Of a DNA stretch of 52,655 nucleotides, positions 3,601 to 24,692 are shown in pieces. The notes under the pieces are model-generated. The model was not told the origin of the DNA and did not search any database. It saw only the letters and a list, made by a program, of their open reading frames with translations. The translations under genes were made by a program, and so were the position numbers. Source of the DNA: Aquimarina litoralis (GTDB lineage: Bacteria; Bacteroidota; Bacteroidia; Flavobacteriales; Flavobacteriaceae); assembly GCF_019295435.1 (NCBI RefSeq), contig NZ_WEKL01000012.1, positions 67,124-119,778 of the forward strand. Reading direction: 5' to 3'. Numbering within the stretch: position 1 is the stretch's first letter; every line of letters starts with the position of its first letter.

Positions 3601-3931
3601 CATTATCTTTTTGCCATCCACTAAGGGCTTGCATAGCACTAATTATTACTTTCTCTCCTTGTTTAGAAGTATAAGTAATTGGTTGTCCGCCTTGACCTGA
3701 TCTGGCAGGTCTAATTATTTCCTCATAAGTTCCTCCTCCAATAATGATAACATCACCAGGCTGGGCTACCGAAGAAGCTTTTGAAATCGTTTTGTAAGGT
3801 TTGGTTTGCGTTCCGGGATTTGAATCATTCCCGTTTTTTGCTACGTAAATGTCTTTAGCATTTATAAATGATACAATGGTCATTAAAAAGACCAAAATAC
3901 ATCTCCGTAAAAGAGTTTTAAAATTTTTCAT
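689..3931 (-). CDS. Secreted right-handed beta-helix protein with ricin-type lectin and T9SS domain
   Basis: 1080 residues. A signal peptide (about 1-25) is followed by a right-handed parallel beta-helix region (about 27-610) that starts DIYVAKNGNDSNPGT, the usual opening of pectate-lyase-like/DUF1565 helices, with many short H/N-rich turns. Then come two tandem ~100-residue beta-sandwich modules (about 644-750 and 752-855), each with EFWSST, PGSGY and DRDQ..NVTV. A ricin B-like beta-trefoil (about 857-1000) has three QxW-type repeats (DQKWEI, HKKWKI, NQKWKI). A T9SS sorting domain starts YPNPSKESI near 1015. It is probably an extracellular or surface-bound polysaccharide lyase or hydrolase. 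The helix gives no substrate and I cannot place it in a CAZy family. It lies downstream of the GH5 mannanase gene on the same strand. Confidence 0.8.
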   Translation of the reverse strand: MKNFKTLLRRCILVFLMTIVSFINAKDIYVAKNGNDSNPGTQTKPYKTISKASSVAQPGDVIIIGGGTYEEIIRPARSGQGGQPITYTSKQGEKVIISAMQALSGWQKDNGAIYKIKVNWDLGQENFVLNGNTAMDLARWPNNTDGDPFTLNSRRNDGGSGSNVVNGAFLTSSQIPNINWSGGSVFFYGDKPGSGWIAWKAFITSSSSGRVNFKLDKNPAWIRTFHAPADKGDFYLEGVKGALDYQNEWWFNKQTKELFVQMPGGQAPVNGVVQMRRRTTTVDLSGRSFIHIRNLAVFGGSINMPRNSNNNVIYGVSSFYGNHTLGVQKGFSANKQSVLMEGNNNTVEHCEIAFGAANGIKVSGDKNRILNSRIHDFNYIGSYDAPINARGGKNTLFKGNTIFRAGRDGIQFFNNRSEFAYNDVYRSNLINDDCALLYTVGGPHYGEIHHNWFHDSEGRGKLRKAAAIYLDNDAEAFSVHHNVVWNVEWTGVQINWNGKDIDIFNNTLVKTEGGAMGAWHKPGTAFSNVKVWNNIADVKTEDDPSTQEDEGTFERDADKQNNVITKLGYTNYNGNDFTLRSNSPAVNAGRRISGITDGFVGSAPDAGAYEFGGTNWVPGINWNPDLGPTGNGCYGLPGEDCNVSTTPDEVAFINPATTIQPQTSYDFKVNYSASTNREIVVEFWSSTNWLGQKMVRVEAGTGVANVTVDLPTAPAPGSGYIYKAHIRPVGTTWQEAIDRDQVDNVTVANQTFADKVSFNNAPTSVVQATSYSFDISYEASTTRDIIVEFWSSTGWIAQQNEQVAKGTGTKTITVNLPNLPEPGSGYVYKVHIRPLNTSWQDALDRDQINNVTVTARFSQLISNGVYHIESPQNNERLLARALENHSARMHKPANFDDQKWEIKHIDDNVYTIRNLGTNRYLEVPYARCENGTNVATWIDDVDSHKKWKIVKNGNDIYALQPTHCLSRALDRAGGAVGANVIIWNYSSTNANQKWKITSLGNRQDPTSDSLLRVYPNPSKESISILGAEVNDIITIYDITGKTIKKTKLNSANELISVSEIESGVYILSVFGKSKTQFVKE

Positions 3932-4120: not shown

Positions 4121-7100
4121 CTATCTATTCACAAAGATTTTCTTGCGTGTTATTTGATTGCTTTCGATATCTTTTATTTCTAAAACATAAATTCCCTGAT
4201 GTAATCCCTGAAATGAAATTGAAACTTGTTTTTGTTGGTCTTTTAATTTTTCGCGTTTGATTACATTTCCAACAAAATCAGTCAACTTGATCTCAGGATT
4301 TTTAAGTGTTTCAAAACCAGAAAGGTTAACAAAATCCTTGGTTGGATTTGGAAACACTTTAATTTCATCAAAGATTCTTGATGCGATAAACGATGAAGAT
4401 GGTTCAGTACCCCAAACCAAACTATTATTAATGTACAGCGTAATATTTTGATTTGGTGAGAATGCTGTCCCTATGGATTTATATGAATAATCATCTGTTT
4501 CATCAAAAGCACTCCAATTTGTTTTGGCAAATCGAGTTTGAATAGGCCCTGAATTTTGAGATGTATCTAATATTCCAGCTCCAGTAGCAAAAGTTACTTC
4601 TAAATAATCCATACCATTATCTTGTCCAAAAGTACCATTGACAAGATTAGTTCCTAATTGTGCCCAATCACACCAAAAATTAAGATTACTATTATCTTCT
4701 GAAGTAAACCAATATCTGATACTTAGGTCTTCATAAGAAACTGTTTGAGTTCCATTATTTACAATTCTGATATGTGGATTGATCATATTATCAGCAGCAT
4801 TTCCACGTCCTCCATCCAGATATTCTAGAGTTAAATCACCACTAGGTTGATCCATCACGGAAATTTCTAATGATTTTGTAGCGGTTTGTCCCGCTCCATT
4901 ATCAATGGTAAGTGTAACTAGATATGTTCCTACACTATTAAAAGTATGACTAGTTGTAATACCTGATCCTACAGTTCCATCACCAAAATCCCATGAAAAT
5001 GAAAGTGGATTTCCTAATGGATCAGAAGATCCAGAAGCATCAAAATTCACTACCAAAGGAGCAGTTCCGGACTGATTATCCGCTGTAAAATCAACAATAA
5101 GGCTTCCATCGGATACAGTGATTGTTTTTGTAATCATATCCTCTAGCTTTCCGTCACTTACTGTGAGTTTTACATCATAAATCCCTTGATTTGTAAATTC
5201 ATAATCTGTAGTTATTCCTATAGCCGAATCGCCATTTCCAAAATCCCAGAAATATGTTAATACATCATTATCGGGATCTGAAGATGTAGACGCATCAAAG
5301 CTTACCAATAGCGGAGCTATTCCTAAATCAACATTTGAAGTAAATTGAGCTATTGGTGGTTGATTAGGATCTTGTACTTCGATAGCTATTGTAGTGCTAT
5401 CTGTATTTCCATCAGCATCAGTTACTGTAAGAGTAACTATTTGATCTCCTATTTGAGTAAACTCATATGACGTGGTAACTCCTATAGCCGTGTCTCCATT
5501 TCCAAAATCCCAAGCAAATGATAATACATCTCCATTAGGATCACTAGAAGCTGAAGCATCAAAATCCACTAGTAAAGGAGAGAAACCTGACATTGGAGTT
5601 GCAATTGCTCTTGCTATAGGAACATTACTACCTCCTGGTTCAATCCCGCTTACTAATTGTCCATTGAGGTACAATCCCACTCGATCCCAAGGGGCAAATT
5701 CTTTTTTGGTTCCGTCATACGAATAATCATTGGATTGATCAGTTTCTGACCAATTACTATTGGCTATTTTGGGTTCCATTCTACCTGAACCAGCACTTCT
5801 TCCTAACATGCCGGCAGCGGGATCAAATGTAATCTCCAGATAATGATTATTTCCTTCTGTATTTACTATTTGACCTTTTACATTAGTACTACCGATCATC
5901 GCATAATCCATAAAGAAATTAAGCGGTAAATCCGTTTCTGTTTCAAACCAATAACGAATACTTAAATCTGCATAAGCCACATCTTCTGATGAGTTATTAA
6001 AAATTCTAAAATGTGGTTTGATAATATTGGTAATTGCACCTTCTGAAGCATCTTTATACTCTAATGTTAAGATTCCATCTCCACCTATTTGGATATTTCG
6101 AGGAGTTGATGTTTTGATCACGCCATTGATTCCTGTAGCAACCGATGTAATCTGGTAGTTTCCATCTGGCAATCCTGAAACATCCAATTCATATGGAGCG
6201 GTGGTATCTTCACCAACTAATTCTCCATTACTAAAAAATTCTACTTTAAGTACCGTATTATTCTCATTCAAGAGATTAGCTTCCATATGTACAGTACTTC
6301 CTGAGACATATTTATCACCAGATTTTGGAGACATCAATGATAAATAAATTGCTTCTCCACCAGACATTTCTTCCATGCGGAGTGAATGTTCTTTGTAGAT
6401 CGCAACTTCTATATCTCCTTCAAAAACTCCGAATTTATCTCTTGGAGTATTGTTGTCTGGAAACCACCAAAACGCACTAGCTCCAATCTTTTTTTGTTCG
6501 ATAAATCCATACATTTCTTCCCACCACTCATATCGCTCTTGAATTTCTACATTAAATTCTCCAATATAGAGCGGTTTCTTTAAGATCTGATGGGATTCAT
6601 CAGCCCAGTCACAAACAAGTTTCAAAGTCTCTTCTAATGTAAAATTGGACCAGCTCTCCCGAATATAGGGATGTGCTGAAGCAAAGTCTATATAAGGAGA
6701 TTGGTGTATTTTGATAAAATCATTTCCTTCATCTCCACCAAATCCATAGCGCGTTCCATGAGCTTCTAAACCAGTACTTAGTAAATGATTGGAATCAATT
6801 GCTTTGATAAAAGCTCCCATATCATCTACCCAAGCTCTTAATACATCTGAAGTTACATCATCTCCAAATCCCTGATATCTTGGTTCGTTCATCAACTCCC
6901 AAGCAAGAATTGTAGGATCATTTCTATATTCTACACCATCATAATGATTGACACGGGTAAGAAAATATTCTACATAATCCTTATATCCTTGAATAGCAGA
7001 AGCGTTTGTAAAGAACTGACCTTGATCGTGTGTTCCTGCACCTTCAACTTCAATACCTTCCCATTTAAGGCGATCTTTGATCCCTCCATAATCATTCCAA

Positions 7101-7516
7101 TAATTTTCTAAAGCAACGATCAGTTTAATTCCATTTGCTTCTGCTGATTTGATTACATAATCAAATAAGGAAAATTGACCTTCACTATAAACTCCTTTTT
7201 GAGGTTCAAATCCATGCCAATCTTCATGGCTAAATCCCCATAGGCGGACTACTCTCACGCCGTTTTTATATAATCTTCGCATATGTTCATCAATGCGATC
7301 TTTATCCATAAACTGTGTTTCTATATCTCCACTGGAAGAACCATAGGTAAAAAAATCATACACGTTAGTACCTGAAAAATAATAAGGCCTACCGTCTAGC
7401 ATAAATTTCTCTCCATCCGTATAGACAAAGTCTGAAGATGGCATTTTCTGGGAAAATAACTGCATACTAAAAAACAGTAAGCATAGAAATACTAAAGGTT
7501 TGATGTTAGTTTTCAT
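4121..7516 (-). CDS. GH5 (subfamily 7-like) beta-mannanase with two CBM3s, PKD domains and T9SS domain
   Basis: 1131 residues. Signal peptide about 1-23. The GH5 barrel (about 27-385) resembles endo-beta-1,4-mannanases of subfamily 7: GTNVYDFFTYG near 49, ENYWNDYGG near 137, and WELMNEPR with the acid/base Glu211. The nucleophile is Glu320 in LYIGEFNVE. After the barrel come an Ig-like domain (about 394-475), a CBM3 (about 482-628), three PKD domains (about 632-714, 718-802, 804-888), a second CBM3 (about 893-1038, with a CDWAQLG segment) and a T9SS domain from FPNPTKDF near 1055. CBM3 modules bind crystalline cellulose, so the enzyme may act on mannan lying on cellulose fibres in plant or algal walls. 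CBM3 is more usual in Firmicutes cellulases, which hints at domain acquisition. A GH5 glucanase is the main alternative. Confidence 0.88.
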   Translation of the reverse strand: MKTNIKPLVFLCLLFFSMQLFSQKMPSSDFVYTDGEKFMLDGRPYYFSGTNVYDFFTYGSSSGDIETQFMDKDRIDEHMRRLYKNGVRVVRLWGFSHEDWHGFEPQKGVYSEGQFSLFDYVIKSAEANGIKLIVALENYWNDYGGIKDRLKWEGIEVEGAGTHDQGQFFTNASAIQGYKDYVEYFLTRVNHYDGVEYRNDPTILAWELMNEPRYQGFGDDVTSDVLRAWVDDMGAFIKAIDSNHLLSTGLEAHGTRYGFGGDEGNDFIKIHQSPYIDFASAHPYIRESWSNFTLEETLKLVCDWADESHQILKKPLYIGEFNVEIQERYEWWEEMYGFIEQKKIGASAFWWFPDNNTPRDKFGVFEGDIEVAIYKEHSLRMEEMSGGEAIYLSLMSPKSGDKYVSGSTVHMEANLLNENNTVLKVEFFSNGELVGEDTTAPYELDVSGLPDGNYQITSVATGINGVIKTSTPRNIQIGGDGILTLEYKDASEGAITNIIKPHFRIFNNSSEDVAYADLSIRYWFETETDLPLNFFMDYAMIGSTNVKGQIVNTEGNNHYLEITFDPAAGMLGRSAGSGRMEPKIANSNWSETDQSNDYSYDGTKKEFAPWDRVGLYLNGQLVSGIEPGGSNVPIARAIATPMSGFSPLLVDFDASASSDPNGDVLSFAWDFGNGDTAIGVTTSYEFTQIGDQIVTLTVTDADGNTDSTTIAIEVQDPNQPPIAQFTSNVDLGIAPLLVSFDASTSSDPDNDVLTYFWDFGNGDSAIGITTDYEFTNQGIYDVKLTVSDGKLEDMITKTITVSDGSLIVDFTADNQSGTAPLVVNFDASGSSDPLGNPLSFSWDFGDGTVGSGITTSHTFNSVGTYLVTLTIDNGAGQTATKSLEISVMDQPSGDLTLEYLDGGRGNAADNMINPHIRIVNNGTQTVSYEDLSIRYWFTSEDNSNLNFWCDWAQLGTNLVNGTFGQDNGMDYLEVTFATGAGILDTSQNSGPIQTRFAKTNWSAFDETDDYSYKSIGTAFSPNQNITLYINNSLVWGTEPSSSFIASRIFDEIKVFPNPTKDFVNLSGFETLKNPEIKLTDFVGNVIKREKLKDQQKQVSISFQGLHQGIYVLEIKDIESNQITRKKIFVNR

Positions 7517-7534
7517 TTTAAAATAGATTAGTTG

Positions 7535-7548
7535 AGTTTTTAAATTGT
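7535..7548 (-). promoter_or_regulatory. Shared leader element (ACAATT..AAAACT type) before the mannanase gene
   Basis: The minus strand reads ACAATTTAAAAACT here, 18 nt before the ATG. Near-identical elements precede the cytochrome, GH5 and GH9/GH48 genes. Role unknown; it may be part of an A-rich translation enhancer or a regulator site. Confidence 0.35.
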
Positions 7549-7657
7549 TTTTTTAATACTCCAACTATTCCCAAACGATATCACTACAATACAAGACATT
7601 CCCCATCAGTCTTTATACGTGATAAAACTTTACTTTTTGAATTCGATGTTTTAGATA

Positions 7658-7696
7658 ACTGTTGAACACCTTTGAAGAATTTGGCGCCCAACAGTT
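7658..7696 (-). terminator. Possible weak terminator after the cytochrome gene
   Basis: AACTGTTG at 7658-7665 is complementary to CAACAGTT at 7689-7696, just after the stop at 7703. The stem is only 8 bp and the downstream T-run is poor. Confidence 0.3.
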
Positions 7697-7702
7697 TCAC
7701 AT

Positions 7703-10700
7703 TTACTTGGCAATCTGTTTAATTATAGTTTTCTTGTCTACTTGAATCTGAATAAAATATACACCAGATGGAACTGTGGCCATATCTAGTTTCATTCCTT
7801 TTACATCTTCTTGAACATATCTTGATGCTATTGTTTTTCCACTGATATCCACTATTCGGATAAAAGCTTCTTGCAAACTAGAATTACTTTCCAAGCTGAG
7901 ATAATCTGTAACCGGATTTGGAAATGCTTTGATAGCTATAACACCTTCAAGAGTAGAAGGATCATTTTCCTTATTTTGACAATCAGGAATACTATTTTGA
8001 TTTGTAAAGTAAATAGTATAAGCTCCACTTTTAGAGACCAGTGCAAAATTGTCACCATCCATTGTTACAAGGTAGGCACCATCAAAATTTGATATTCCAG
8101 TTCCAGACAAAACAATATCAGGTGCTATTTGTCCAAAAGTTTGACTAACAATAGAAGCTTTCAAATCAATCCACCATCCTGGGTTTCCGTTATTTGTGCT
8201 CATGGAAAGTTGCCATAATCCATTATTTTGCAAATCCCAATTGACTGTCAGATTGGTTACATTACTCAAATCTGGACCATTTTGACCTAAAACATGTACA
8301 TTATCGTATGAAATATTAGCTAAGGTTGGTAATGCAGTATTTAATGGAGCTCCAAAACTACAGTCATTTCCAGATGATGGTTGGGTTACGGTAATCGTTT
8401 GTGTTACATTATCTGACAAAGAACCATCACTTACTGTTAGTGTAATGGTATATATTCCTTCTATCGTATATGTATGACTCTCAGTTTCACCATTTCCGGT
8501 AGTACCATCTCCAAAATCCCATAAATACTCTAATATATCTCCATTAGCATCTGAAGATGCTGATGCGTCCATACTTATTACAAGTGGAGCTATTCCTGTA
8601 GCTACAGAAGTACTAAAACTCGCTACTGGAGCTACATTTCCTTCCAAAACAGTAATAGTTATTGGTGAAGATACATCCGATTGAATTCCATCACTAATTG
8701 TTAAAGTAACAGCATAGGACCCTGCTATAGTATACGTATGTGAAGGGTTTTCTAAATTACTAGTATTTCCATCTCCAAAATCCCATAAATAATCAATGCT
8801 AGATCCAACAGGAAAAATAGAACTCGATGGATCAAAACTTACCAGTAACGGAGCATCTCCAGAAACTGGAGTTGCGGTAAAGTTTGCTTCTAAGCCTGGT
8901 AATGTATTTTGCACCTCAACTGTGAGCATATCTGTATCCGTTTTCCCATTACCGTCATCTACTGTTAGCATTACTTCATAGGTTCCAAGCTGTTGATATG
9001 TATAAGAAGTTGTGATTCCCGTAGCGGTATCTCCATTTCCAAAATCCCAACTATAGGATAGTGTATCGCCATCTGGATCAGTAGAATTGCTTGCATCAAA
9101 ATTTATAGCTAACGGAGCTTCACCAGAACTAACATCACTCGTTATCACAGCATTTGGACTTCTGTTGGTATTATCACCTTGAATAGGTTCTAATCCCCAA
9201 ACTAATACTCCTTGATAATAGAGAGTTACTAATACATGTGATTTTAATGACGTTTTAGAAGCATCATACGAAAAATCATTGCTTTGATTATGTGTTTGAA
9301 ATCCTGCATGATGTAATCGAGTTTGTATTTGACCGGATTTACTATTCGCATTTATATTTCCTGATGATGTAGAAAAGCCAACTTCTAAATAATGTTCATT
9401 ATCCTGAACTCCATAATTGCCATTGACACCTGTAGGTTGTGAATAGTCAATATTAAAGTTCATCGGAATATCATGTTCTGGAGTAAACCAATATCGTATT
9501 TTGAAATCATCCAATGAAACACTTTGATTAGACTCATTCACAATTTGAAATACTGGTTTTAATTCTACAGTAGAAACTCCTGAACTATTGTCGCGATATT
9601 CTAAACTGAAATCTGTATCTGGTAAGTCTCCAAATCTTTCATCTACAGTAATCGTGATCTCTGTTGGATCACCTACAATTTCTCCATTAGAATTAGCTCT
9701 TATCAATTTTATAGTATGTTCTCCTTCAGAAAGGTTTGTAACTGCAATTGGCGCAACGTTATAAACCGAACCTTGTTCAACATTATCAATAAAATATTTG
9801 ATATGCTGACCATTTGGAGTGATATCCCATAAGAATGTGGTAAATTCTATTTCAAAATCAGGACCTACCAATCCTCCATCAGAAGGGGATTGTATGATTA
9901 CTGTAGGATCTTGAGGCAACTGATCCTTAGTTACAATAACTGTTATTGTTTCTCCCAAATCTGTAACAGAGTTATCACTACGCTCCATTTGCAGTGTCAA
10001 TTCATGAGGCCCTTCGGCTAAAGCTGTTCCATCTGCGTGAGGTCCTTCAGCATCAATCAGTCCTCTGTCCTGACCATCTATTTTAAATCGAAGTTTGTAT
10101 TGTTGCGACGGCAATTCCCATCCTTCAGTTTCAAAATTGATCGTTATTGGAGCATTCACCATTTGTCCGTCTACCGGAGATGTAAAAAAGATATCTGGTA
10201 ATGGTCCAATTGGTGTAATAGCATCACCACCATGTAATGTCCAGATAACCGCTGCATCAAACATTTTGAGTCCTTGCTCTGTCAACAAATGCATGAACTG
10301 ATCACGTAATGGAAATGCTGTTCTTCTGGATGGGATTGAAATACTAGATTCATATCCAAACAAAATTGGTTGTGTTCCTGCTTTTGCAACAATTATAGCT
10401 TCTTCAAATGGATTTCCAAATGGTAAACTCTGAGTGATTCCGTATAATGCTGTTTGTGCATCAGCGCCAGCTGCCATTGGATGATCCGTATCAGCGATGG
10501 TCACTTTTGAAAATCCTTCAGAGGTAATTCCAAAACCAGAATTCAATGGTCCTGAAGTCATTCTAAGTTTACCGTACATAAATGGATTCCATGTCATTAA
10601 TGGCACACGAGCTCCCTCAAGATCATTCCCCAGTTCTCTCGGATCGACAGAAGAGGAAATTAATACTAAATCAAATGGATTAGCAGATTGAGGACTGGTA

Positions 10701-13700
10701 GCTTCTTCATCAGAGAATAATGTAATTGCAAATCCTAATTTTTGCTCTAATCTGGATTTTATACGTTGATCTTCATTTGAAAGATTATCCTTATCTCCAA
10801 CTACGAACATCACTTTGATCGTATTCTTATAATTCACCTGAATTTCTGGGGTAATTGAAGCTGTTTTAGCGGCATTATAAAATACTTTTGCTGTAATTCT
10901 ATATGCTTTCCAAATTACCGGATTCCAATTCATTTCATAAGGAGAAGTGGTCACCGTTCCTATTAAATCATCATCCACATAATACTCGATCTTAGAAACA
11001 TCAGTAATATCTGTATTGACGGATAGCTTTACCGGATCTGAAGTATCAATTTGAGCTCCATCAACTGGAGATGCCATCTCTAATAATTGAGTTCCTGTTA
11101 TTTCGGATTCTGATCCATCAATTTGTTTGATATATGCTTCTAGTTGGTCAATTTCACTTGCACTCAATGTTGATATAGCTCCATGTGCATCATTTGGATT
11201 ATAAGTTGTTAATACCTCCCTAATGGTTTTAGCTGATCCATCATGAAGATATGGTGCAGTTGCCCAAACATCTTTTAAGGTAGGCACATCGATTCCTAAC
11301 AATGGTTTTTCGAGACGATTTCCACTAGTAGTAACAATAGTCCCAACATCGTGTAATTTTCCTGATGGACTATCCGTAAAGCCATCTCCTCCATGACATG
11401 ACATGCATTGAAGATCGGTAAAAATTGATTTTCCAGCTACTGCATCAGCGGTTAAGGAACCATCTTGGTTTCGGTATGGACTTGGGTCAAACTGATTCAA
11501 AGATTCGATATACGCTGTTAAAGCATCTAGATCAGCAGATTTTCCTGCTTTTGGACTTCCTAAAGTTAATGCTGTAGTACCCTCGTTAAAAGTTGCATTA
11601 TCCATAAAACCTTGTCCTTTGAAATGAAAACGAATATCATTTTCAAAATCCTGAATTTCATCAAAATTAGCACTCCAATGAACTCTACCATGTCCTGTTC
11701 CTTCACGACCAACTAATGAAATAGTATTACGTAATCCCTCACCGCGGTCTGTAAAGTCCCATATTCTTCCATCTTGTGTTCCATCGATATGACAACTGGC
11801 ACAACTTACATAACCATCTGTTCCCATTCTGATATCGGCAGCATCATAAAATATCTGCTTTCCTTTCAAAACCTCAGCACTTAATAACTCCTGATTAACG
11901 GTATTTATAGTTGTTACTTCTTCTAACAATGTTGTTCCTTGGGTAACGATTTGATCGGCATCAAATACCGTAATCGAACGATCCATAAAGTTCTTTACAA
12001 ACAATCGATTGGTTGCTTGGTCAAAAGCCATTCCTTGAGGTGCTTTACCCACATCTTTTTTGACAAGTTCCAAACCTGTTTTAGGATCAATAACCACGAT
12101 TCGGTTATTCCCTTGCATTGTGATGAAAAGGTAATTCCCTGTAGGACTAAACAAAGCAGAAGAAGGCTGACCATGATTATCAATATCTAACCTATTTTGA
12201 AGCATCTCGCTACTCGTAGTGATATTAATAGGAGATATTGCAGTCCGTACTACATTATCAAAAGTTAATGTTTTTCCATCTCTTGCTAAACCTCTTAATG
12301 TATTGTCTTTTTTGGCTACAGACCATGCGGTTTGACTATCAGGATGAATACTAATGCCAGCGATATAATTAGGTAACCCTCTTCCTTCATTACCGTTATC
12401 CACTGTAAAATCATCCAGTGCTAATCCGATCGTATTTTTAAGAGTAAAGGTAGATAAATCTACTTCCCAAATTTGACCTTCCTGATTTGGAGATATAAAT
12501 CGAGTTACTAACAATTTTTCTCCATCTCCAGTTATAGCAAGTGCTCTAGGAGTACCTCCTATAGGTAATAAAGATACAACAGTATTTGTCGCTGAGTTAA
12601 CCTCTATCAATTCTCCCGATCCAAACGCTGAAACAAAACCACGAGCTCCATCAGGTGTAAATACAATACCATAAGGTCTGGAACCTCTATCTAAGGAAAT
12701 TTTCTTCACAAAAACACCTAGATTATTTAAAATATAGAGTTCATCAGAATCTCTACATGTGATCCAAACATTATCATTGACATCCAAAGCTATATTTACA
12801 GGATCCTTTCCTACAGCAACCTCATCGATAATAGTGAAATTATCTGCGTTTATAAGGGTAACTGAGTTATTATCAGGATTTACTGACCAAACAACTCTGT
12901 TATTTTCGTCCACTACTATTGGACCAGATTGTTTAGGAGCATTTTCAGATATATTATTAGTAACTACTATTGATTGAGAAGCTACCGCAAATCCTCCATT
13001 ATTATCAGAAACCTGTACCTGAACCGTGTAGTTTCCTGCTTCCGTAAAAATGTGATTAGTAGTATTACCGATCCAATCTGTTTTTGGAGAACCATCACCA
13101 AAATCCCATCGGTAATTCAGCGAATTACCGTCGGGATCTGTGGCATTTGCAATAAACTCTAAATTAGTGCCCACAATTATTGGCGATGGAGTATTCAATT
13201 CTATTTTGGTAACTTCTGGAGATTGATTAGATGAATCTCCCCCAGTAGTGAAATAAAAAATGTATTCTTCCATTCCATTTCCAACAGCATCCTTGATTCC
13301 ATCTTCAACAAATTTTACTTCATAGGTTGTATTGGGTAATAATTTTTCTTTGGGAGCATAATTAATCACTTGATACGAAGTAGTTGTTACATCACCCTTA
13401 ATAGGTTGGCCACCTAAAGGGCTCACCTGAATTGTTTGATCATTTAAGGTAAGATCATTTAAAGTTTCATTAATCACAAAACCTATAGTTGTAGTAATAG
13501 GTTGATTAATAGCACCAGATATCGGGAAATGATGTCCTACGGAAGGTGGTTTTATATCCAAGCCTTCTTGGTGTGCAAAAATGGACGTTTTATCATCCCC
13601 ACTGGCAACCAAAATATGTCCAATAGGCATCCATTGATTATCTATGAACTGTAGCGTTTCATCACTGGATGGAGGAATAAACTCTTGTTCAACTTCCATG

Positions 13701-14653
13701 GTTTCAAAATTGAACTTTACTCCTCTATCAAACCTTCCAGAAAATCCATATTCATCTTGGAAGATCATATATCTCCCTAATGTAATTTGATCAGAATGTA
13801 GACTGAATCCTCTTTTTACATTAGTAGGATCACTTATATCAAAACCTACCAAGGCATCAGGCCCTTGATTTCCACTCATGAAAACCAAGTAATTTCGCCA
13901 AAGCTGAATTCCTGTACTATATTGTTCGTGCGGAATATCTCCACCAAAAGATCCTAAAAATTTAATATCATCAGGATTCCCAAAATCGAAAACACTGATA
14001 TCGCCGGTTTGAGGTGCATAAAAAACATAATTCCCAACACGGACTACTACATCTGGTAGCGATACTGAAGCAGGTATATCATCTACTTGCTCTCCTGATC
14101 GCATGTCGTATACACGATTTCCATTAATCGTATGCGGAAATGTTTCTAAGTTATCATAATTAGATTGCCCATCTTGAACCGTATATAATATATCAGAAGT
14201 AGTAACTGGTTTACGATCTAGCATATCAGAAAGATCTAAATATTTATATCCAGTACCTTCTACTTCTGGCACAGAATATTCTCTATAAAACAGATCTCCA
14301 TCTAATTTCCACCATCGATGTCCATTATTCGCGGCGTCACTGAATTGAACTCTTTTTGGAGCAGTAGGATTAGAAATATCCCAAACTCCTGTTCCTGCTT
14401 GACCATTGATCATTAAATAATTACGATGGTAGGTATTAATTCTATCTCCTTCTGGAAAATTTGCAAGAAATGTTCCTGCAGGCCAAGTTTGTGTTGTCAT
14501 TTCTGGACCGGCAGTTCCGTCATACATCATATTAAATGAAGATAACGCTACCAGACCAAATAAAGTTAGAACTCCTATTGTGTAAAAAAGCGTTTTACGT
14601 ATGTTTTTAAAATACGAAAGCCATCCACACTTATTTTGTGGTGTTGGTCCCAT
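7703..14653 (-). CDS. Giant secreted beta-propeller / di-heme cytochrome c protein with CBM3 and T9SS domain
   Basis: 2316 residues. The N-terminus has a long signal peptide or signal anchor (hydrophobic about 22-40). Then follow an LVIVD-like repeat region (about 70-350), a Big_5-type Ig domain (about 372-475), a PKD (about 480-575) and a YVTN/NHL-like beta-propeller (about 580-925). A cytochrome part (about 930-1200) has two c-heme sites, CASCH at 951-955 and CMSCH at 1083-1087, in a context (RNTISLVGREG, APYLHDGSA) like MauG/di-heme peroxidase-related proteins. Next are an Ig-like domain, an alpha/beta domain resembling ThuA/class-I amidotransferase folds (about 1273-1476), two Ig-like domains, a CBM3 (about 1681-1828), three PKDs, the unknown Cys-bounded module (2098-2225) and a T9SS domain (about 2240-2316). 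It is probably an exported redox protein held on cellulose. An electron-transfer or oxidising role beside the hydrolases is inferred; no LPMO gene is visible here. Confidence 0.8.
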   Translation of the reverse strand: MGPTPQNKCGWLSYFKNIRKTLFYTIGVLTLFGLVALSSFNMMYDGTAGPEMTTQTWPAGTFLANFPEGDRINTYHRNYLMINGQAGTGVWDISNPTAPKRVQFSDAANNGHRWWKLDGDLFYREYSVPEVEGTGYKYLDLSDMLDRKPVTTSDILYTVQDGQSNYDNLETFPHTINGNRVYDMRSGEQVDDIPASVSLPDVVVRVGNYVFYAPQTGDISVFDFGNPDDIKFLGSFGGDIPHEQYSTGIQLWRNYLVFMSGNQGPDALVGFDISDPTNVKRGFSLHSDQITLGRYMIFQDEYGFSGRFDRGVKFNFETMEVEQEFIPPSSDETLQFIDNQWMPIGHILVASGDDKTSIFAHQEGLDIKPPSVGHHFPISGAINQPITTTIGFVINETLNDLTLNDQTIQVSPLGGQPIKGDVTTTSYQVINYAPKEKLLPNTTYEVKFVEDGIKDAVGNGMEEYIFYFTTGGDSSNQSPEVTKIELNTPSPIIVGTNLEFIANATDPDGNSLNYRWDFGDGSPKTDWIGNTTNHIFTEAGNYTVQVQVSDNNGGFAVASQSIVVTNNISENAPKQSGPIVVDENNRVVWSVNPDNNSVTLINADNFTIIDEVAVGKDPVNIALDVNDNVWITCRDSDELYILNNLGVFVKKISLDRGSRPYGIVFTPDGARGFVSAFGSGELIEVNSATNTVVSLLPIGGTPRALAITGDGEKLLVTRFISPNQEGQIWEVDLSTFTLKNTIGLALDDFTVDNGNEGRGLPNYIAGISIHPDSQTAWSVAKKDNTLRGLARDGKTLTFDNVVRTAISPINITTSSEMLQNRLDIDNHGQPSSALFSPTGNYLFITMQGNNRIVVIDPKTGLELVKKDVGKAPQGMAFDQATNRLFVKNFMDRSITVFDADQIVTQGTTLLEEVTTINTVNQELLSAEVLKGKQIFYDAADIRMGTDGYVSCASCHIDGTQDGRIWDFTDRGEGLRNTISLVGREGTGHGRVHWSANFDEIQDFENDIRFHFKGQGFMDNATFNEGTTALTLGSPKAGKSADLDALTAYIESLNQFDPSPYRNQDGSLTADAVAGKSIFTDLQCMSCHGGDGFTDSPSGKLHDVGTIVTTSGNRLEKPLLGIDVPTLKDVWATAPYLHDGSAKTIREVLTTYNPNDAHGAISTLSASEIDQLEAYIKQIDGSESEITGTQLLEMASPVDGAQIDTSDPVKLSVNTDITDVSKIEYYVDDDLIGTVTTSPYEMNWNPVIWKAYRITAKVFYNAAKTASITPEIQVNYKNTIKVMFVVGDKDNLSNEDQRIKSRLEQKLGFAITLFSDEEATSPQSANPFDLVLISSSVDPRELGNDLEGARVPLMTWNPFMYGKLRMTSGPLNSGFGITSEGFSKVTIADTDHPMAAGADAQTALYGITQSLPFGNPFEEAIIVAKAGTQPILFGYESSISIPSRRTAFPLRDQFMHLLTEQGLKMFDAAVIWTLHGGDAITPIGPLPDIFFTSPVDGQMVNAPITINFETEGWELPSQQYKLRFKIDGQDRGLIDAEGPHADGTALAEGPHELTLQMERSDNSVTDLGETITVIVTKDQLPQDPTVIIQSPSDGGLVGPDFEIEFTTFLWDITPNGQHIKYFIDNVEQGSVYNVAPIAVTNLSEGEHTIKLIRANSNGEIVGDPTEITITVDERFGDLPDTDFSLEYRDNSSGVSTVELKPVFQIVNESNQSVSLDDFKIRYWFTPEHDIPMNFNIDYSQPTGVNGNYGVQDNEHYLEVGFSTSSGNINANSKSGQIQTRLHHAGFQTHNQSNDFSYDASKTSLKSHVLVTLYYQGVLVWGLEPIQGDNTNRSPNAVITSDVSSGEAPLAINFDASNSTDPDGDTLSYSWDFGNGDTATGITTSYTYQQLGTYEVMLTVDDGNGKTDTDMLTVEVQNTLPGLEANFTATPVSGDAPLLVSFDPSSSIFPVGSSIDYLWDFGDGNTSNLENPSHTYTIAGSYAVTLTISDGIQSDVSSPITITVLEGNVAPVASFSTSVATGIAPLVISMDASASSDANGDILEYLWDFGDGTTGNGETESHTYTIEGIYTITLTVSDGSLSDNVTQTITVTQPSSGNDCSFGAPLNTALPTLANISYDNVHVLGQNGPDLSNVTNLTVNWDLQNNGLWQLSMSTNNGNPGWWIDLKASIVSQTFGQIAPDIVLSGTGISNFDGAYLVTMDGDNFALVSKSGAYTIYFTNQNSIPDCQNKENDPSTLEGVIAIKAFPNPVTDYLSLESNSSLQEAFIRIVDISGKTIASRYVQEDVKGMKLDMATVPSGVYFIQIQVDKKTIIKQIAK

Positions 14654-14777: not shown

Positions 14778-17159
14778 TTATTGTTTTACAATTTGCTTAG
14801 TAATTGTTTCATTTTGACTTCTGACTTTCACAAAGTATATTCCTGATTTCACATCTGAAAAATCTACTTCTATACTATTAGAATCGACATTCTTAGTAAC
14901 TAAAATTCTTTTTAGTACTTTTCCTGTTACATCAACAATATCTACTTGGTTAGTTTCAAAAGTATTGTTAGTTGTAATTACTAATCTATCCAAAACGGGA
15001 TTTGGAAAAGCTTTTAGTTGAATACTAGTATCTTCAGGTTTTTTTAGCTGATCTGAGCAATTAGGAGCTGTATTGCTATTACTGAAATAAATGGTATAGG
15101 TTTTATTTTTGGCCACTAAAGCAAAGTTCTGACCATCTTGTGTTGCGTAATACGCTCCATCAAGATTTGCAAATCCAGTTCCAGAAAGGGTTATGCTCGG
15201 TTGTGCAGCATTAAAATTTTGACTAGTTATATTGTTTTTAAGATCATTCCACCAACTTGGCACTCCATTATTGGTATTCATGGATAACTGCCACAAACCA
15301 TTATTTTGTAAATCCCAATTGATTGTAAAATTAGTTACATTGCTTAAATCTGGGCCACCAGAACCAAATACATAAATATTACTGTAGGATGCATTTGCAA
15401 TTGTAGGCAATGAATTGGCTAATGGAGCTCCGAAGGTACAATCTCCTCCGTTACCTGATCCCGTTATTGTAATTGTTAATTGCTCTGTATCTGAAATTCC
15501 ATCAGCGTTTGTTACCGTTAGTACTGCTATATAGCTTCCTTCTGTTGTATATTCATGGTCTACTATAGCTCCCGAACCGGAAGTACCATCCCCAAAATCC
15601 CAATTATATAACAAAGCACTTCCATCTGACGATGCAGAGCTTGATCCATCAAAACTAATTGTAGCTGGTGCTACTCCGGAATTAGTATCTACTGAAATAC
15701 TAGCCGTTACTGTAGGAACAGTATCATCGTTTACTGTTATTGTTTTGCTTACTGTATCATTCAATGAACCGTCACTTACTGTTAAGCTTACTTGATAACT
15801 ACCAGGTGCATCAAAAAGATGCGAAATGCTTACTCCTGTTGCCGTAGTTCCATCTCCAAAATTCCAAGAATATGATAAAGCATCTCCATCAGGATCTGAA
15901 GATTGAGAAGCATCAAATTGCACCGTTAAAGGAGCATTACCAGAACTAGGATTGTTTGTAAAACTTGCTGATGGAGGTAAATTTCCGGTTCCCCCTACAA
16001 CGTTAGGTATAAATGGAGCGAAATGCGGTCTAAGCACGTCCATTTTCCATTCATTTACAGTAGTCCAATCATCTTGTAATATTCCGCCAGTATCTCCAGA
16101 ATTTGGATTCATAGTCCAAAACGTCCATGAATAAATGCTTCCCATAAAATCTACCCATTCTGTAAACCAAGTAAAAGCTACACCTCCAAATGCATCCTGA
16201 TCTTTAATACCAAACTCCCCAATAAATAGTGGAGATGTTTCCTCTTCATATAGATAATGAAAATTCTCTGTCCATATTGGTGGCATGTTTTGAGGAAAAG
16301 AAGCAGCTTCAAACCAATCTTGTGGTGCGACTTCTGGTCCATATTCATGAGCTGAATACATTAATTTTGAAGGATTTGATAATTGAACCGGATATTGTCT
16401 AGCTCCCATTAATTGTCCTCCCCACCAATAGGAATTCCCTTCGAATTCTCCCACTCCTTCAACAATAATCAATACATTGGGATTTACTTCTAAAATGGCA
16501 TTCCCACATCGTTCTGCTGCTTTATTCCAATCGGTAGCTGGATTGCTATTACCCCAAGAAGATCCATGAGGTTCATTATTTAAATCCATACCTACAACAG
16601 CTGAATAATTTTTATAACGTTCGGTCATAAATAACCAGTCATTGATCCACCTTTGTTCTGAATATTCATTGGTATACCAAAGATCTTCTGCTAAATATCC
16701 ATCAGCAGCTCTGGAATGATTGTCTAATACAATTTTGATATCATTATCCTGACACCATTGTACCAAAATATCCATCAGTTCAATAGGTTTTGTAATCTGC
16801 GACTCTTCTTCATTCATTGGCGAAATACCAGTGTAGGCATCTGTTCCGTACGAATTAATACTAATGGTTGAGCTTGGGTTTAGCATTTCATTGGACCATG
16901 GTACTCTGATGGTATTAAATCCTAAATCTTTGATCTGCTGAAGTACACTTTTCATATCTCGACTCCAAATTCCATGTGGGAAATACGTTTGTGTTTCAAA
17001 ACCAAACCAGTTTACTCCAGTTAATCTTACTTCCTTTCCTGTAGAATCAAATAACTTGTTCCCGGAAACTGAAAGCCAGTTTTGCTGTTGAGCAAAAGCA
17101 CTAGATACATTTCCTAAAAGAAATAATAGCACTATTGCAAAGTTTATGAATTGTTTCAT
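14778..17159 (-). CDS. GH5 (subfamily 1-like) endoglucanase with PKDs and T9SS domain
   Basis: 793 residues from the ATG at 17157-17159. An in-frame ATG 45 bp upstream (17204) would add a hydrophilic MMKFYPKSK stretch before the signal peptide, so the downstream start (MKQFINFAIVLLFLLGN) is preferred; it also has the shared leader element. The GH5 barrel (about 27-385) has GVNWFGFET, HGIWSRD and NTIRVPWS, closely recalling the E1 endoglucanase of Acidothermus (GH5_1). Acid/base Glu196 is in DLNNEPHG and nucleophile Glu315 in LFIGEFGIKD. Two PKDs follow (about 394-479 and 481-565), then the unknown Cys-bounded module (574-701) and a T9SS domain from FPNPVLDR near 718. It should cut internal beta-1,4-glucan bonds outside the cell and work with the GH9/GH48 enzyme encoded just upstream. 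No CBM of a known family is present, so the unknown module may supply binding. Confidence 0.9.
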   Translation of the reverse strand: MKQFINFAIVLLFLLGNVSSAFAQQQNWLSVSGNKLFDSTGKEVRLTGVNWFGFETQTYFPHGIWSRDMKSVLQQIKDLGFNTIRVPWSNEMLNPSSTISINSYGTDAYTGISPMNEEESQITKPIELMDILVQWCQDNDIKIVLDNHSRAADGYLAEDLWYTNEYSEQRWINDWLFMTERYKNYSAVVGMDLNNEPHGSSWGNSNPATDWNKAAERCGNAILEVNPNVLIIVEGVGEFEGNSYWWGGQLMGARQYPVQLSNPSKLMYSAHEYGPEVAPQDWFEAASFPQNMPPIWTENFHYLYEEETSPLFIGEFGIKDQDAFGGVAFTWFTEWVDFMGSIYSWTFWTMNPNSGDTGGILQDDWTTVNEWKMDVLRPHFAPFIPNVVGGTGNLPPSASFTNNPSSGNAPLTVQFDASQSSDPDGDALSYSWNFGDGTTATGVSISHLFDAPGSYQVSLTVSDGSLNDTVSKTITVNDDTVPTVTASISVDTNSGVAPATISFDGSSSASSDGSALLYNWDFGDGTSGSGAIVDHEYTTEGSYIAVLTVTNADGISDTEQLTITITGSGNGGDCTFGAPLANSLPTIANASYSNIYVFGSGGPDLSNVTNFTINWDLQNNGLWQLSMNTNNGVPSWWNDLKNNITSQNFNAAQPSITLSGTGFANLDGAYYATQDGQNFALVAKNKTYTIYFSNSNTAPNCSDQLKKPEDTSIQLKAFPNPVLDRLVITTNNTFETNQVDIVDVTGKVLKRILVTKNVDSNSIEVDFSDVKSGIYFVKVRSQNETITKQIVKQ

Positions 17160-17163
17160 TTGT

Positions 17164-17177
17164 AGTTTTTTAATTGT
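17164..17177 (-). promoter_or_regulatory. Shared leader element before the GH5 endoglucanase gene
   Basis: The minus strand reads ACAATTAAAAAACT, ending 4 nt before the chosen ATG at 17159. If the upstream ATG at 17204 were used, the element would fall inside the coding sequence; its position supports the downstream start. Confidence 0.35.
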
Positions 17178-17423
17178 TTTTGATTTTGGATAAAATTTCA
17201 TCATCCAATGTTGTTTTCAGAATAATTCAACTCTTTCATCAATCCTCTGCACTTCATATTAAAAGATAAAGCATTGCCCTTATGAATGCACATTATATTC
17301 TGAAATATCATATTTATTGGGTATTAGGTAATAGAAGCAGCAATGTGAGCACACCATGTTTATCAATCCTAATTGATTAGATAAACAGATCAATCCACAA
17401 ATCCACTAGGTTTATTTAACGGG

Positions 17424-17468: not shown

Positions 17469-20400
17469 TTACTTCTTGATAATTTTATCTCTAAACTTAT
17501 CTCCTGTGGTAATGTCATAAATTTCTAAAATGTACATTCCCGTAGGTAACTCATTTACTGAAAGTCTTGTTGATTTTTGTTTATTAACAAGAGATTCAGT
17601 TCTTACTACATTTCCAGCAATATCTATTACTCTAATTCTGGTATTTTTCATATCAAAATTTGTAGTAATATTGATATAATCAGAAGCTGGATTTGGAGTA
17701 GCTGTTACTTCAAATATTTTATCTGGTGCTTTTGTGCTAGGTTCTTGATCTGAGAAGAAGTATCCAAATTCAGCATTTGCTAAAGCTACTTCTATCTGCG
17801 CCCAACTTCTGTGGTAGCGTTGAGTATATTCTGCTCCAGCATTATAAGCTGTTTCCAATCTATCGAACTCAGGATCATTTCTATATCCAGATCTAATATC
17901 TAAGAATGTAACTCCAGGCTCAATTGCATCTCCATTTGGCATCGTTCCTGTGAAACCATTTGGAACATATACCTCTTCTTCAAAGATTCTTGAAAAATCT
18001 CCTCTGTCTTCTGGAGAAGAAACTCCTTTATCATCTCTATAGGTATTCCACATTCTGTCAAGCACTTCTTTAGCAAGATCTCTTGCATCTGTATCGAAAG
18101 TACTATGCTTTTGAGTAGCTGCTGCGTAATAAATTAATGCTTTGGCCATAGAAGCTGCAACTCCTAAATCTTTTCCATAATCTGTAACCGTTACACTTAG
18201 ATTTGTATTACTACCTGGATTAGTTGGATCCCAAGTATCTGGTTCTCCTGTCCACTCTAATGTTGCAGGAATTTCAAAGTCATCAGTACCAATAAGTTGT
18301 ACTTCACTTTTTACCCAAGCTACCCATTTATCCATTAAAGCTTTTGCCATTGGGTCGTTAGTAATATAATAATACTCTGCAACTCTTTCCATAGACCAAG
18401 CTTGCCATCCAAACCAAGTTCCACTTCCTGGATCGTGATATACTGGATCTTTATCATATGCCATTCCATAGAATGTAGATTTTCCTGCAGGATAAACACT
18501 ATAATCTCCATTCCAACTATTTGTCGCTCCACCAGCAATTGCTCCTTCTTTAGACTGTAACCAGGTGTAGAATTCCATTTGTCTTTTCAGACTTTCATTC
18601 CAATCTCTTTCTCCATTCTGAGATATTGGCTTTAACTCATCTACTTGGGTCAATGCATAGGCTGCCATTGGATTTTGATATCCAAAGTGACAATGACTAG
18701 AGCTTATTCTAAATGCCCATTGCGAAGCAGGATCTGCCGAACCACCCCAAGACATGTACCACGACATTAAGTAATGTGCACTGTCATATCCAGATCCCGC
18801 TCCACTAGAAGCACTTTGCACTCCTAAGGGCTTAAAATATTTATCAAACATGGCTATTCTCAAATAGTCACCCATTTTAGTTGCCTTGTCTAGGTCAAGA
18901 TTTCCTAAACTAGCTCCTTGTTCTTTTGCATAAATTTGTGCCCAATACATTGCTTGAACTGCTCTAGCATCAGCATCTGGTGCACTTGTATACCTCCATT
19001 GTCTTGCATAGTTTTGATCTTCAACAAATAATGGTAAGAATCCGCTTGATCCTCCCCAATCAAAGCTTTCCCAAGACGGATGAGGTATTGTTTCATAAAC
19101 TGATTCTTGTTCTCCTCTTTGGAACGTATTGATATAAGATGGTGTACTAACTCCATCACCTCTATTACCATATCCATAGAAATTATCATTATCCAGTAAC
19201 CAATGCATCTGATATACATCCGGACCATATGTTGCTGTTAAATCTGCAGAAACAGGATCTACTCCTACGGGAGCATTAAACTCTAACGGTGCAGGATAAT
19301 CACTAGGCAGTGGGAATTCTGCTGCAAAAGCTGCAGGTGAAGAAGGGTTATAAGCTGCATTACTTGGTTGATCTGCTTTTGTAGGGATTATAAATTGCTC
19401 TATTTTATCCCAAACGTTACTCAATGGAGCCCAATCTTGGGTAACTCTTCCATTCATTACCTCTAACCATAACCAGTATGAATATAATTCACTTGTAGAT
19501 TCATGTCCATAATCTGGAGCCTCTACAATTAACGTTTCAATAGAATGATGTGGAGATCCGTCTGCACTAAAATATCCATTAGCAGGGTCATAGAACTCAT
19601 TTCTCAGCTCTATAAAGCGATTGATATATGCATTATCTGTTGGAGGAGTTATAATAATATCTCCATCTGTCACATTAATTGTAATAACCGCTTGATCAGT
19701 TCCTCCATTCCCATCATCAACGGTTAATGTAGTCGAATAAGTTCCTAAAGAAGTAAATGTATTTTCTACAGTAACTCCATTTGCAGTGTTTCCATCTCCA
19801 AAATCCCAAGTATACGTTAATGCATCTCCATCAGCATCGGAAGAAGCTGATGCATCAAAATTAACTAATAATGGAGCATCTCCAGAAATAGGAGTTGCAG
19901 AAATATCCGCAACTGGATCGGTATTACCTCCAGTATTATCACAATCTGGAGCTATAGCAGAGTTACTAAAATATATAGTAAACCCTCCTGTTTTAGAAAC
20001 CATTACAAAATCAGTTTCATTTACTGTTACCCAATAATCTCCATCCAAACCAGGAATTCCTGTTCCTGATAGACTAGCTTCAGGGTTTGCTGTGCTAAAA
20101 TTATATGTAAGATTAGGTCTTAGATCTACGTACCAATTCGGTTGTCCATCATTTGTATTCATTGCAAATACATAGAGCCCTGTATTTTGTAGATCCCAAT
20201 TAATAGAGAATTCTCTAAAATTACTTAGACTTGGTCCTCCATTTCCTAAGACATGTACTTGAGAGTATCTATTATCTACACTTGGTAGTGCTGTTGAAAT
20301 TGGTGTTTCGAAAGAACAATCACTTCCATTAGAAGCTGGATTTCTAGTAACAGTAATAGAGTTTGAAAGATCAAAGTCTCCTACTAAATCAGCTGCGTTG

Positions 20401-23400: not shown

Positions 23401-24437
23401 CTATAAATTAAAGCGGTCAGCGATGCATTCATTGCATGACGTAAAGAACCCCACTGTGTTAAATGTGCCTGACCTCCAGGAGAATAGTTCACACCACCAT
23501 TACCTTCTTGCCACCAATCTAAATGGCGTTCTGCATCAGCTTTATATATGTCTTTTCCAGTAATTATAGATAATAATACCATATTACCATAAGATTTATC
23601 TTCCCACACTAGGCTCCATAAAAAATCTGGTTGGGTATATTCTGCCTCCGCTTTATCAAGATATTTCTGATCACCAGTAGCCTTGTATAACCAAAGTGCT
23701 CCCCAAGTTAATTCATCTTGAAAATTTCCTGAAGTATACGTTCCTACTGCAGGAATATTTCCTTCAGAAGTATAAAGTCCTCTATACGTATCACCAAAAT
23801 TATATAATTCAATAGCGTGACTTAATAAAGTTGCACTATAAGCAGGATCACTATCTTTAAATATTATACTCGCTGAAGCTAAGGCAGCCGCAGTCTCACA
23901 AGCTACCTCAGTACCGGGATTACTAGTGGTTAATGCATAAGATTTTCGCTGTCCATACATAGGATGCACATCTACCATTTCAGCAGGCATCCAGAAGTTA
24001 TGATCCTGAGATTTACTATCTGCAACCTGTGCATAAAAAACATTAGGTGATGGGTGACACTTTATAAAGTAATCTGTAACCCATTTAATATTTCGTTTAA
24101 AATGTTCTGTCTGATTTGCGGCATCATATCCGTCTTTATACTCTAAGAATCCCCAATTAAGAGCTGTTACGGAAAACGCCATTGGAAAACCAAATTTTAC
24201 ATGGTCTCCCGCATCATTCCATCCACCAGTTAGATCGAGCCCAACATCAGCTCCATCATTAATCCCAGAATCGGACCTCCAACTTATTCTATTCCAATCT
24301 GGTAGAATTCCAGATTGCTGTGTTTCATAGAAAAGCAAGGACTTTTGCAATGCTTCTCCGTAATTAAATTGTGCATACGATGTAGCACATAATAAGCACG
24401 CTATGAGCATTGTGCTTATTCTAATAAAGTTTCTCAT
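17469..24437 (-). CDS. CelA-like GH9-CBM3c-GH48 bifunctional cellulase with T9SS domain
   Basis: 2322 residues. Signal peptide 1-22. The GH9 domain (about 24-460) has WNDAGDH (Asp75/Asp78, base/nucleophile site), HHRGQHSSW at 391-399 and the proton donor Glu439 in [14 protein letters not shown]3c (about 472-632) follows, as in processive GH9 enzymes. Then come three PKDs (about 635-895), unknown module A (898-1023), three 114-residue tandem repeats (1030-1367), unknown module B (1374-1499), a fourth PKD (about 1507-1592) and a GH48 domain (about 1603-2228). The GH48 region carries [16 protein letters not shown]; Glu1639 and Glu1650 are spaced 11 apart like Glu44 and Glu55 of CelF. A T9SS domain starts near 2247. 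GH9 (endo/processive) and GH48 (reducing-end cellobiohydrolase) in one chain is the plan of Caldicellulosiruptor CelA, but with a different middle part and T9SS export. Confidence 0.93.
20337..21350 (-). repeat. Three tandem ~342-bp repeats inside the GH9/GH48 gene
   Basis: Units of 114 residues (1030-1143, 1144-1257, and 1258-1367 without the linker) start [10 protein letters not shown], hold [12 protein letters not shown] and end NSITVTRNP. The proteins differ at only a few sites, while the DNA differs at more positions, mostly third bases. The units resemble tandem repeats I recall from large surface proteins of marine Flavobacteriia; that resemblance is unchecked. Each has one Cys. They probably form extended Ig-like spacers or adhesive units. 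Confidence 0.9.
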
Positions 24438-24446
24438 TGTAAGTGT

Positions 24447-24623: not shown

Positions 24624-24692
24624 ATGCAAAAACATTACCTGAACAACATCTGTTCTACAATATTTTAATCAGTCTTTTTGTACTTTGGAAAA

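Follow-up and report, generated by a model that had tools for sequence, protein, structure and literature searches.

What would a heme protein do inside a cellulase cluster? The question is raised by a gene of Aquimarina litoralis whose product, a multidomain di-heme protein, combines a redox core with cellulose-binding modules and may be a so far unstudied redox partner in cellulose breakdown. The gene was analysed in a window of 52,655 nucleotides (NZ_WEKL01000012.1, positions 67,124 to 119,778), which is the whole stretch of DNA considered here and to which the coordinates given without a prefix refer. The genome has a size of 6.3 Mb, and the closest named relative of the gene, among the best 80 of 327 relatives, is from an uncultured Aquimarina (91%).

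Domain organization and gene neighbourhood

An initial annotation, made from the sequence alone, had given the limits and strand of the reading frame exactly (Table 1). From the N-terminus, the protein has a hydrophobic helix (in the AlphaFold model, a presumed export signal), a first propeller, Big_5, PKD, a YVTN propeller and the di-heme domain; the second half comprises Big_7, a ThuA/GATase-like fold, an unnamed-domain stretch, CBM3, PKDs, CBM113 and a T9SS tail. Por_Secre_tail and PKD exceed their Pfam cut-offs, as does the YVTN repeat profile, and CBM_3 scores 41.1 bits against a cut-off of 22.4, so that the YVTN-like propeller, the CBM3 and the T9SS tail first read from the letters are all confirmed; the N-terminal second propeller, Big_5 and the C-terminal CBM113 are additions to that reading. 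No dehydrogenase domain was found in Pfam and NCBIfam profile scans of the 2316 residues.

Table 1. Features of the di-heme gene and its neighbours in the window
Feature	Residues	Position	Strand	Evidence
Whole gene, multidomain di-heme protein	2316 aa	7703..14653	-	intact ORF
N-terminal hydrophobic helix	12-40	14534..14620	-	AlphaFold model
First beta-propeller	~41-365	13559..14533	-	AlphaFold model; profile match to separate partner genes
Big_5 domain	366-470	13244..13558	-	profile, 2.1e-12
PKD domain	490-554	12992..13186	-	profile over cut-off
YVTN propeller, hydrazine-synthase-beta-like	566-905	11939..12958	-	profile; fold match 5c2v_B, TMt 0.77
Di-heme c domain, HZS-gamma/CCP/MauG superfamily	915-1185	11099..11911	-	profile and sequence matches
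CxxCH heme site 1 (CASCH)	951-955	11789..11803	-	sequence
CxxCH heme site 2 (CMSCH)	1083-1087	11393..11407	-	sequence
Big_7	1192-1246	10916..11080	-	profile
ThuA/class-I-GATase-like alpha/beta domain	~1275-1465	10259..10831	-	fold only
CBM3	1685-1758	9380..9601	-	profile, 2.4e-10
Further PKD domains	~1830-2090	8384..9166	-	profile
CBM113 (UKD); W2147, W2160, W2161	2098-2223	7985..8362	-	homology to 9kvn, 1.1e-32
T9SS C-terminal sorting domain		7712..7924	-	profile
GH5 with two CBM3, T9SS tail		4121..7516	-	profile
GH5 with CBM113, T9SS tail		14778..17204	-	profile
GH9-CBM3-PKD-CBM113-GH48 fusion, T9SS tail		17469..24437	-	profile
Beta-helix/ricin-B-lectin protein, T9SS tail, cluster end		689..3931	-	profile

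Profiles also confirm that the gene lies between two GH5 genes, as had been noted, and the GH9...GH48 gene is one further upstream. The fuller order of the latter product is GH9-CBM3-PKD-CBM113-three repeats-CBM113-PKD-GH48-T9SS tail, the repeats being near-identical and of about 110 aa each when read by eye; the protein resembles CelA in being a cellulase with a catalytic domain at each end, here from a Bacteroidota, and GH9 and GH48 are encoded by separate genes in the loci L029/L030. Upstream of the cluster, 1.2 kb (24438-25654) have no ORF of at least 60 aa and are perhaps its control region; at the other end, the beta-helix/ricin-B lectin gene has a homologue downstream in several Aquimarina loci. 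As for the bacterial LPMO family, AA10, its presence in the window was rejected: the search of the genome suggested at the outset found two such genes, both on other contigs.

The di-heme core

Regarding the redox core, the two CxxCH sites and their MauG/peroxidase-like context, both part of the first reading, are real: Cytochrom_C exceeds its cut-off (33.4 against 21.3 bits), CCP_MauG stays slightly below it (24.2 against 25.6 bits), and two c-heme CxxCH motifs lie within one domain of related sequence, as in the MauG/CCP di-heme superfamily. Both motifs are kept in 81 of 81 aligned sequences (the window protein and 80 relatives, no relative having been excluded for absence of the pair), and therefore the pair is not due to chance. 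H992, W993, N996-F-D-E, D1002-F-E and H1137 are equally unvarying, H1157 occurs in 72 of the 81 sequences and in all 41 of a smaller alignment, and the surroundings of the heme pocket, HW..NFDEIQDFE and PYLHDG, are near-invariant between phyla. Such conservation would go beyond the needs of a scaffold, and it argues against a non-catalytic protein, that is, an extracellular electron conduit, adhesin or scaffold with hemes for wiring or structure; the many PKD, Big and propeller modules and the two CBMs would suit this reading, and no relative with a tested activity was seen, but we regard it as improbable.

A profile of 41 di-heme domains, compared with solved structures, matched first the gamma subunit of hydrazine synthase (HZS; 4.8e-32), followed by cytochrome c peroxidases, a di-heme enzyme and MauG; a search with the single sequence also matched HZS beta. 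The AlphaFold model of residues 1-1185 is good in the propellers and poor near the hemes (pLDDT about 40-60); its Foldseek matches were mostly eukaryotic tandem WD40 chains, and only HZS beta (5c2v_B, rank 3, the top single-propeller match) and 1l0q (rank 11) were used. The Aquimarina protein thus has the architecture of HZS beta-gamma, known from Kuenenia (5c2v) and fused in Scalindua, with a propeller, a di-heme domain of MauG/CCP type and an HG motif in common; it differs in the added first propeller and the CBMs, and in lacking the third heme-linking Cys that hydrazine synthase requires (PMC12758564, excerpt), for which no candidate exists among the Cys of residues 1-1185 (9, 633, 951, 954, 1083 and 1086). 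The NCBIfam models of HZS beta-gamma score far below their equivalog cut-offs (82.5 against 625 and 74.6 against 1250 bits); therefore, the protein is not a hydrazine synthase.

In cytochrome c peroxidase (CCP) a Met is the distal ligand of the second heme, and in MauG a Tyr is its axial ligand; we take the corresponding position to be column 14 after H1137 (1151 here). The five commonest residues of this column in the family alignment are A, Y, R, K and N, so that neither ligand is a family trait: the CCP-type Met is not seen in the sequence, and the MauG-type Tyr was rejected as a family feature because, although Y1151 is present here, only 19 of the 81 sequences have it. The conserved candidate is H1157, placed at the HG motif common with HZS gamma. 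In hydrazine synthase, heme gammaII is bis-His and gammaI is the active site (PMC12758564, PMC12607021, excerpts). Judged by its ligand pattern, the core family is predicted to differ from typical peroxidases and from MauG alike, and the core, if an enzyme, should work more like HZS gamma.

These ligands also bear on peroxide defence, in which the protein, as a di-heme peroxidase bound to the fibre, would shield the secreted enzymes from H2O2. This would agree with the CCP/MauG superfamily, whose PY-H-DG motif is shared, with the invariant Trp (W993, whose placement relative to the catalytic Trp of CCP/MauG is uncertain, the profile alignment to the peroxidase of the same genome being off by two residues), and with the CBM-less copies that exist outside a polysaccharide context. 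However, the His candidate as in HZS gamma, in place of the Met of CCP, and the separate 350-aa di-heme peroxidase-like protein that the genome already encodes make it doubtful.

CBM113 and the ThuA-like domain

The UKD module of CelAly, classed as CBM113, is reported to bind insoluble cellulose and alginate, with three planar Tyr serving cellulose binding (PMC13235733, excerpt). The C-terminal module of the di-heme protein is homologous to its structure, 9kvn, and has Trp at the positions of the three planar Tyr (2147, 2160 and 2161), so that it belongs to CBM113 with Trp replacing Tyr; two of the three reported alginate-binding residues of UKD are missing. Because the aromatic face is kept as Trp and two of three alginate residues are gone, cellulose is the likelier target. 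According to the authors of the CelAly study, AA10 are the only auxiliary-activity enzymes with UKD (PMC13235733, excerpt), and both AA10 LPMOs of the A. litoralis genome bear CBM113, in one and two copies (L037:13938-15563, L038:7201-9480). In the same genome, five frames of 170-1375 aa with CBM113-like C-termini lie in one stretch (C42:96110-108683), possibly an alginate/cellulose cluster like one known from other Aquimarina.

As for the ThuA-like domain of the initial annotation, it stands as a fold and falls as a sequence family. The AlphaFold model of this region (pLDDT 78) matches the ThuA-like structure 1t0b (TMq 0.49, E 4e-4), and also the glutamine amidotransferase 2d7j (TMq 0.46); Pfam ThuA matched 0 of 29 homologous segments, even at E<=1, and ThuA identity by sequence was rejected.

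Relatives and exchange of binding modules

Relatives were sought in one genome per species, and of the 327 found the best 80 by similarity to the window protein were kept, so that the counts lean to its kin; flanks covered at most 10 kb per side, several ending at contig ends, and the library used for neighbours was built partly from the same loci, and CAZyme families outside it would go undetected. Within these 80, the core is joined to a CBM in the same protein in 39: CBM3 in 30, CBM2 in three (Endozoicomonas and two Exilibacterium), CBM6 in four (weakly assigned in L122, a 33% match), CBM5/12 in one and CBM96 in one. GH5, GH6, GH9 or GH48 occurs in the flank of 26 of the 39 CBM-bearing loci, the other 13 having no tested hydrolase family within the flank; of the 41 CBM-less loci, three have a tested hydrolase family there. 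These three are the truncated L066, beside GH9/GH48, and the split-gene loci L077 and L079, where CBM6 is on the partner gene. In Endozoicomonas the order is GH6-CBM2, GH5-CBM2, core-CBM2, and in Exilibacterium GH5-CBM2, core-CBM2, GH6-CBM2, with GH48 too in L089. In the locus L044, a 1298-aa protein with DUF5060, GH115_C, CBM6 and CBM96 lies between GH5 and the di-heme gene (4261-8154).

The union of a redox-type protein, cellulose-binding modules and neighbouring hydrolases is therefore real and conserved in the CBM-bearing part of the family; homologues mainly away from CAZyme loci, which had been named as speaking against it, are the case in the CBM-less part. The control scan took in 98 neighbours from 33 CBM-less loci (within two genes, at least 200 aa, cut to 480 aa); the matches listed, which cover 25 of 91 families, contain one CAZyme, a rhamnosidase domain, and the idea that all members of the family are linked to CAZymes was rejected. 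Since the core is often far from CAZymes, the reaction at its base may be unrelated to cellulose, and given its kinship with hydrazine synthase, NO could be a substrate of CBM-less members; in a Cellvibrionaceae bin (L112:6191-8802), the genes for the LVIVD propeller and the di-heme protein come after a flavohemoglobin-like gene. Two relatives are on plasmid records, whose annotation names no cellulase in the neighbourhood, and a phage search gave no match. One distant homologue (28%) is on an Anoxybacillus amylolyticus plasmid (L125:4705-8839), directly behind a hypothetical protein of ~690 aa.

A quick tree was built from the 81 cores. It unites the rows with CBM2 in a single clade (SH-aLRT 98) and requires three changes for CBM6 and two for CBM3, a single change being possible as well for the latter; CBM5/12 and CBM96 are each represented by one row. 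The Tenacibaculum rows are nested inside Aquimarina, which suggests transfer and would suit a passenger, a hydrazine-synthase-like redox protein travelling on a transferable cellulase cassette with no role on cellulose. Separate clades have joined the core to different CBMs, though, which is unexpected for a passenger and renders this explanation very improbable. Overall, the core belongs to the kin of hydrazine synthase beta-gamma and is widespread, with CBM3, CBM2, CBM6 or CBM5/12 attached according to the clade. Fused propeller-di-heme homologues of HZS beta-gamma are highly prevalent in environmental bacteria, including Bacteroidota (Hagglund et al. 2025, PMC12758564, excerpt); a tie to CBMs, cellulases or cellulose was not met in the excerpt of that paper.

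The two-gene form

Two bins, one of Sporocytophaga (L077) and one of Cytophagales (L079), encode the first propeller separately from the YVTN-di-heme part, on adjacent genes; the propeller gene carries LVIVD, Big_5, NPCBM, CBM6 and T9SS, and the surroundings contain GH10/GH43/esterase or GH9/GH43/GH95 genes. The profile of the fused propeller (aa 41-365) matched the partner genes of L077, L079, L092, L111, L112 and L131 at 8e-55 to 1e-74, the seventh gene tested, which precedes the Anoxybacillus relative (L125), giving no match; therefore, the two-propeller unit is old. Pfam LVIVD repeats are found in the partner genes of L077, L079, L092 and L112.

The di-heme protein is present in 5 of the 19 genomes of the family to which the Sporocytophaga genome belongs (this genome included), and four of the five have GH43 as the next gene. 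The fifth, G527, is putatively Cytophaga hutchinsonii ATCC 33406, an unproven identity; its pair (L131, 5465-11832) consists of a propeller-Big_5-NPCBM-CBM6-T9SS protein and a lactonase-type propeller-di-heme-T9SS protein, and the two other neighbours scanned contain no CAZyme. C. hutchinsonii and Sporocytophaga myxococcoides use crystalline cellulose without known exoglucanases or LPMOs, by mechanisms called "enigmatic" (PMC6247017, excerpt); the words cytochrome and propeller do not occur in PMC6247017.

Co-occurrence with GH48 and AA10

The genus sample comprised 52 Aquimarina genomes, of which 19 have the near-full-length protein, 28 GH48 and 33 AA10. GH48 is present in 19/19 carriers and 9/33 others (Fisher, p 1.4e-7, kinship ignored) and AA10 in 18/19 and 15/33 (p 3e-4, likewise without kinship correction); within the GH48-positive genomes, AA10 is in 18/19 carriers and 7/9 others (p 0.23, kinship again ignored). 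In the nine genomes with GH48 and without the near-full protein, G036 and G041 have a core relative of 43-44% instead. A 244-aa frame beside GH48 (G041:C38:13813-14391) matches the di-heme protein over its first 194 residues alone, at 74% identity; it may be what is left of the gene, the frame may be broken, or the contig may end there. In the 18 carrier regions besides that of the window (20 kb), GH48 is found in 17, the first GH5 in 15 and the second GH5 in 14; in G040, the di-heme gene is distant from GH48. In a phylum sample of 395 genomes, GH48 is over the cut-off in three, and exactly these three have the near-full core; a fourth, more distant core (46%) occurs without GH48.

Outside Aquimarina and Tenacibaculum, 17 genomes have a CBM on the core or CBM6 on the partner; 6 of them possess AA10 and 8 GH48, compared to 3 and 3 of the other 26 (p 0.12 for AA10, 0.014 for GH48, without kinship correction). 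Of the 80 loci, 45 entered the AA10 search and 44 the GH48 search, from 44 genomes in each case; the searches left out L043-L063, L070 and L072 (Aquimarina/Tenacibaculum) together with L081, L083, L087, L096, L104, L106, L107, L108, L110, L114, L117 and L119, and the comparison omits L066, a truncated locus, and L074, which shares its genome with L064, and places L092 (partner gene with NPCBM, no CBM6) among the 26. No AA10 over the cut-off was found in 11 of the 17 CBM genomes, or in 6 of the 7 with CBM3; GH48 occurs with no AA10 match over the cut-off in L065, L067, L068, L069, L075 and, within the genus, G025, and the genomes of the CBM3-bearing L071 and the CBM2-bearing L076 have no GH48. 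An absent AA10 or GH48 can be a gap, since several outside genomes are metagenome bins and L075 is small (2.7 Mb). By these counts, the protein tracks GH48-type cellulose breakdown more than LPMOs.

These counts weigh on the proposal that the protein feeds an oxidative attack, as a counterpart of cellobiose dehydrogenase that would pass electrons to AA10 LPMOs on the same fibre, or make or tune H2O2 for them. The two CBM113-bearing AA10 LPMOs of the genome and the association of AA10 with carriers in the whole genus agree with it, and the X183 cytochrome of Cbp2D, from Cellvibrio japonicus, reduces LPMOs, although slowly (PMC12542752, PMC8981238, PMC10916295, excerpts). However, the six carriers with GH48 and no detected AA10 make it unlikely as a general function; the loss of significance in GH48-positive genomes, the CBM genomes with no AA10 over the cut-off, the position of the AA10 genes outside the window and a protein with no detected dehydrogenase domain also count against it, and we regard it as improbable.

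Comparison with known systems and proposed role

The initial annotation knew of no cellulase system with a partner of this kind, which overstated the case. Cbp2D and Cbp2E of C. japonicus bear CBM2 and, in part, cytochromes, and growth on insoluble cellulose needs them (PMC12542752, PMC8981238, PMC10916295, excerpts); together with TERTU_2913 and TERTU_3803 of Teredinibacter they are, like the Aquimarina protein as predicted from its domains, secreted redox proteins with, or related to, cellulose-binding modules. Cbp2D/Cbp2E are the nearest analogues in role, with different domains: theirs, in the excerpts available, are X158 (YceI), X183, X132, FN3 and CBM2, whereas the Aquimarina protein has others by Pfam and NCBIfam. 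The SMP-30-like domain pf08450 is a propeller. In this group of three papers, excerpts of which were available, pf08450 is named for a Teredinibacter protein; the word propeller is absent from the texts of PMC12542752, PMC8981238 and PMC10916295. In the same excerpts, the Teredinibacter X183 domains failed to serve its AA10, the authors of the 2024 paper know of no proteins other than Cbp2D/E that have been suggested as redox partners of bacterial LPMOs, and the 2025 paper proposes direct cutting of cellulose by Cbp2D/E through a novel mechanism. A search of the open-access full-text literature, with subscription papers and preprints outside its scope, found no description of a CBM-bearing propeller-di-heme protein.

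The reading that we prefer, with about an even chance of being right, is that of a di-heme oxidoreductase of the cellulose surface that would aid the cellulases in its own right and without being an obligate LPMO donor. T9SS export and folding would follow heme attachment in the periplasm, and CBM3 and CBM113 would hold the protein at the fibre surface, beside the GH48, GH9 and GH5 cellulases. By homology, heme 1 (His955) would be the reactive site for O2, H2O2 or another small oxidant and heme 2 (His1087, with His1157 as its likely second ligand) would pass electrons on, while the propellers would serve as a docking and access platform. As for the activity of this oxidoreductase, the oxidation of material of the cellulose surface and other redox chemistry at the surface, such as peroxide tuning for the hydrolases, appear equally probable. 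A bolder version, which we hold only tentatively and consider unlikely, is an oxidative attack on cellulose independent of LPMOs, by a propeller-docked di-heme enzyme with clade-specific CBMs, the two-gene form being part of the Cytophaga/Sporocytophaga machinery.

In conclusion, extracellular redox proteins with CBMs are already known, and the unrelated redox module is the new part; with this protein, the few redox partners of bacterial cellulose breakdown would gain a second architecture, which is unrelated to the first and offers a clear candidate for the active site. Its presence without a detected LPMO, together with the two-gene form of Cytophaga/Sporocytophaga, would make a part in the opening of crystalline cellulose testable by the deletion of one or two genes.
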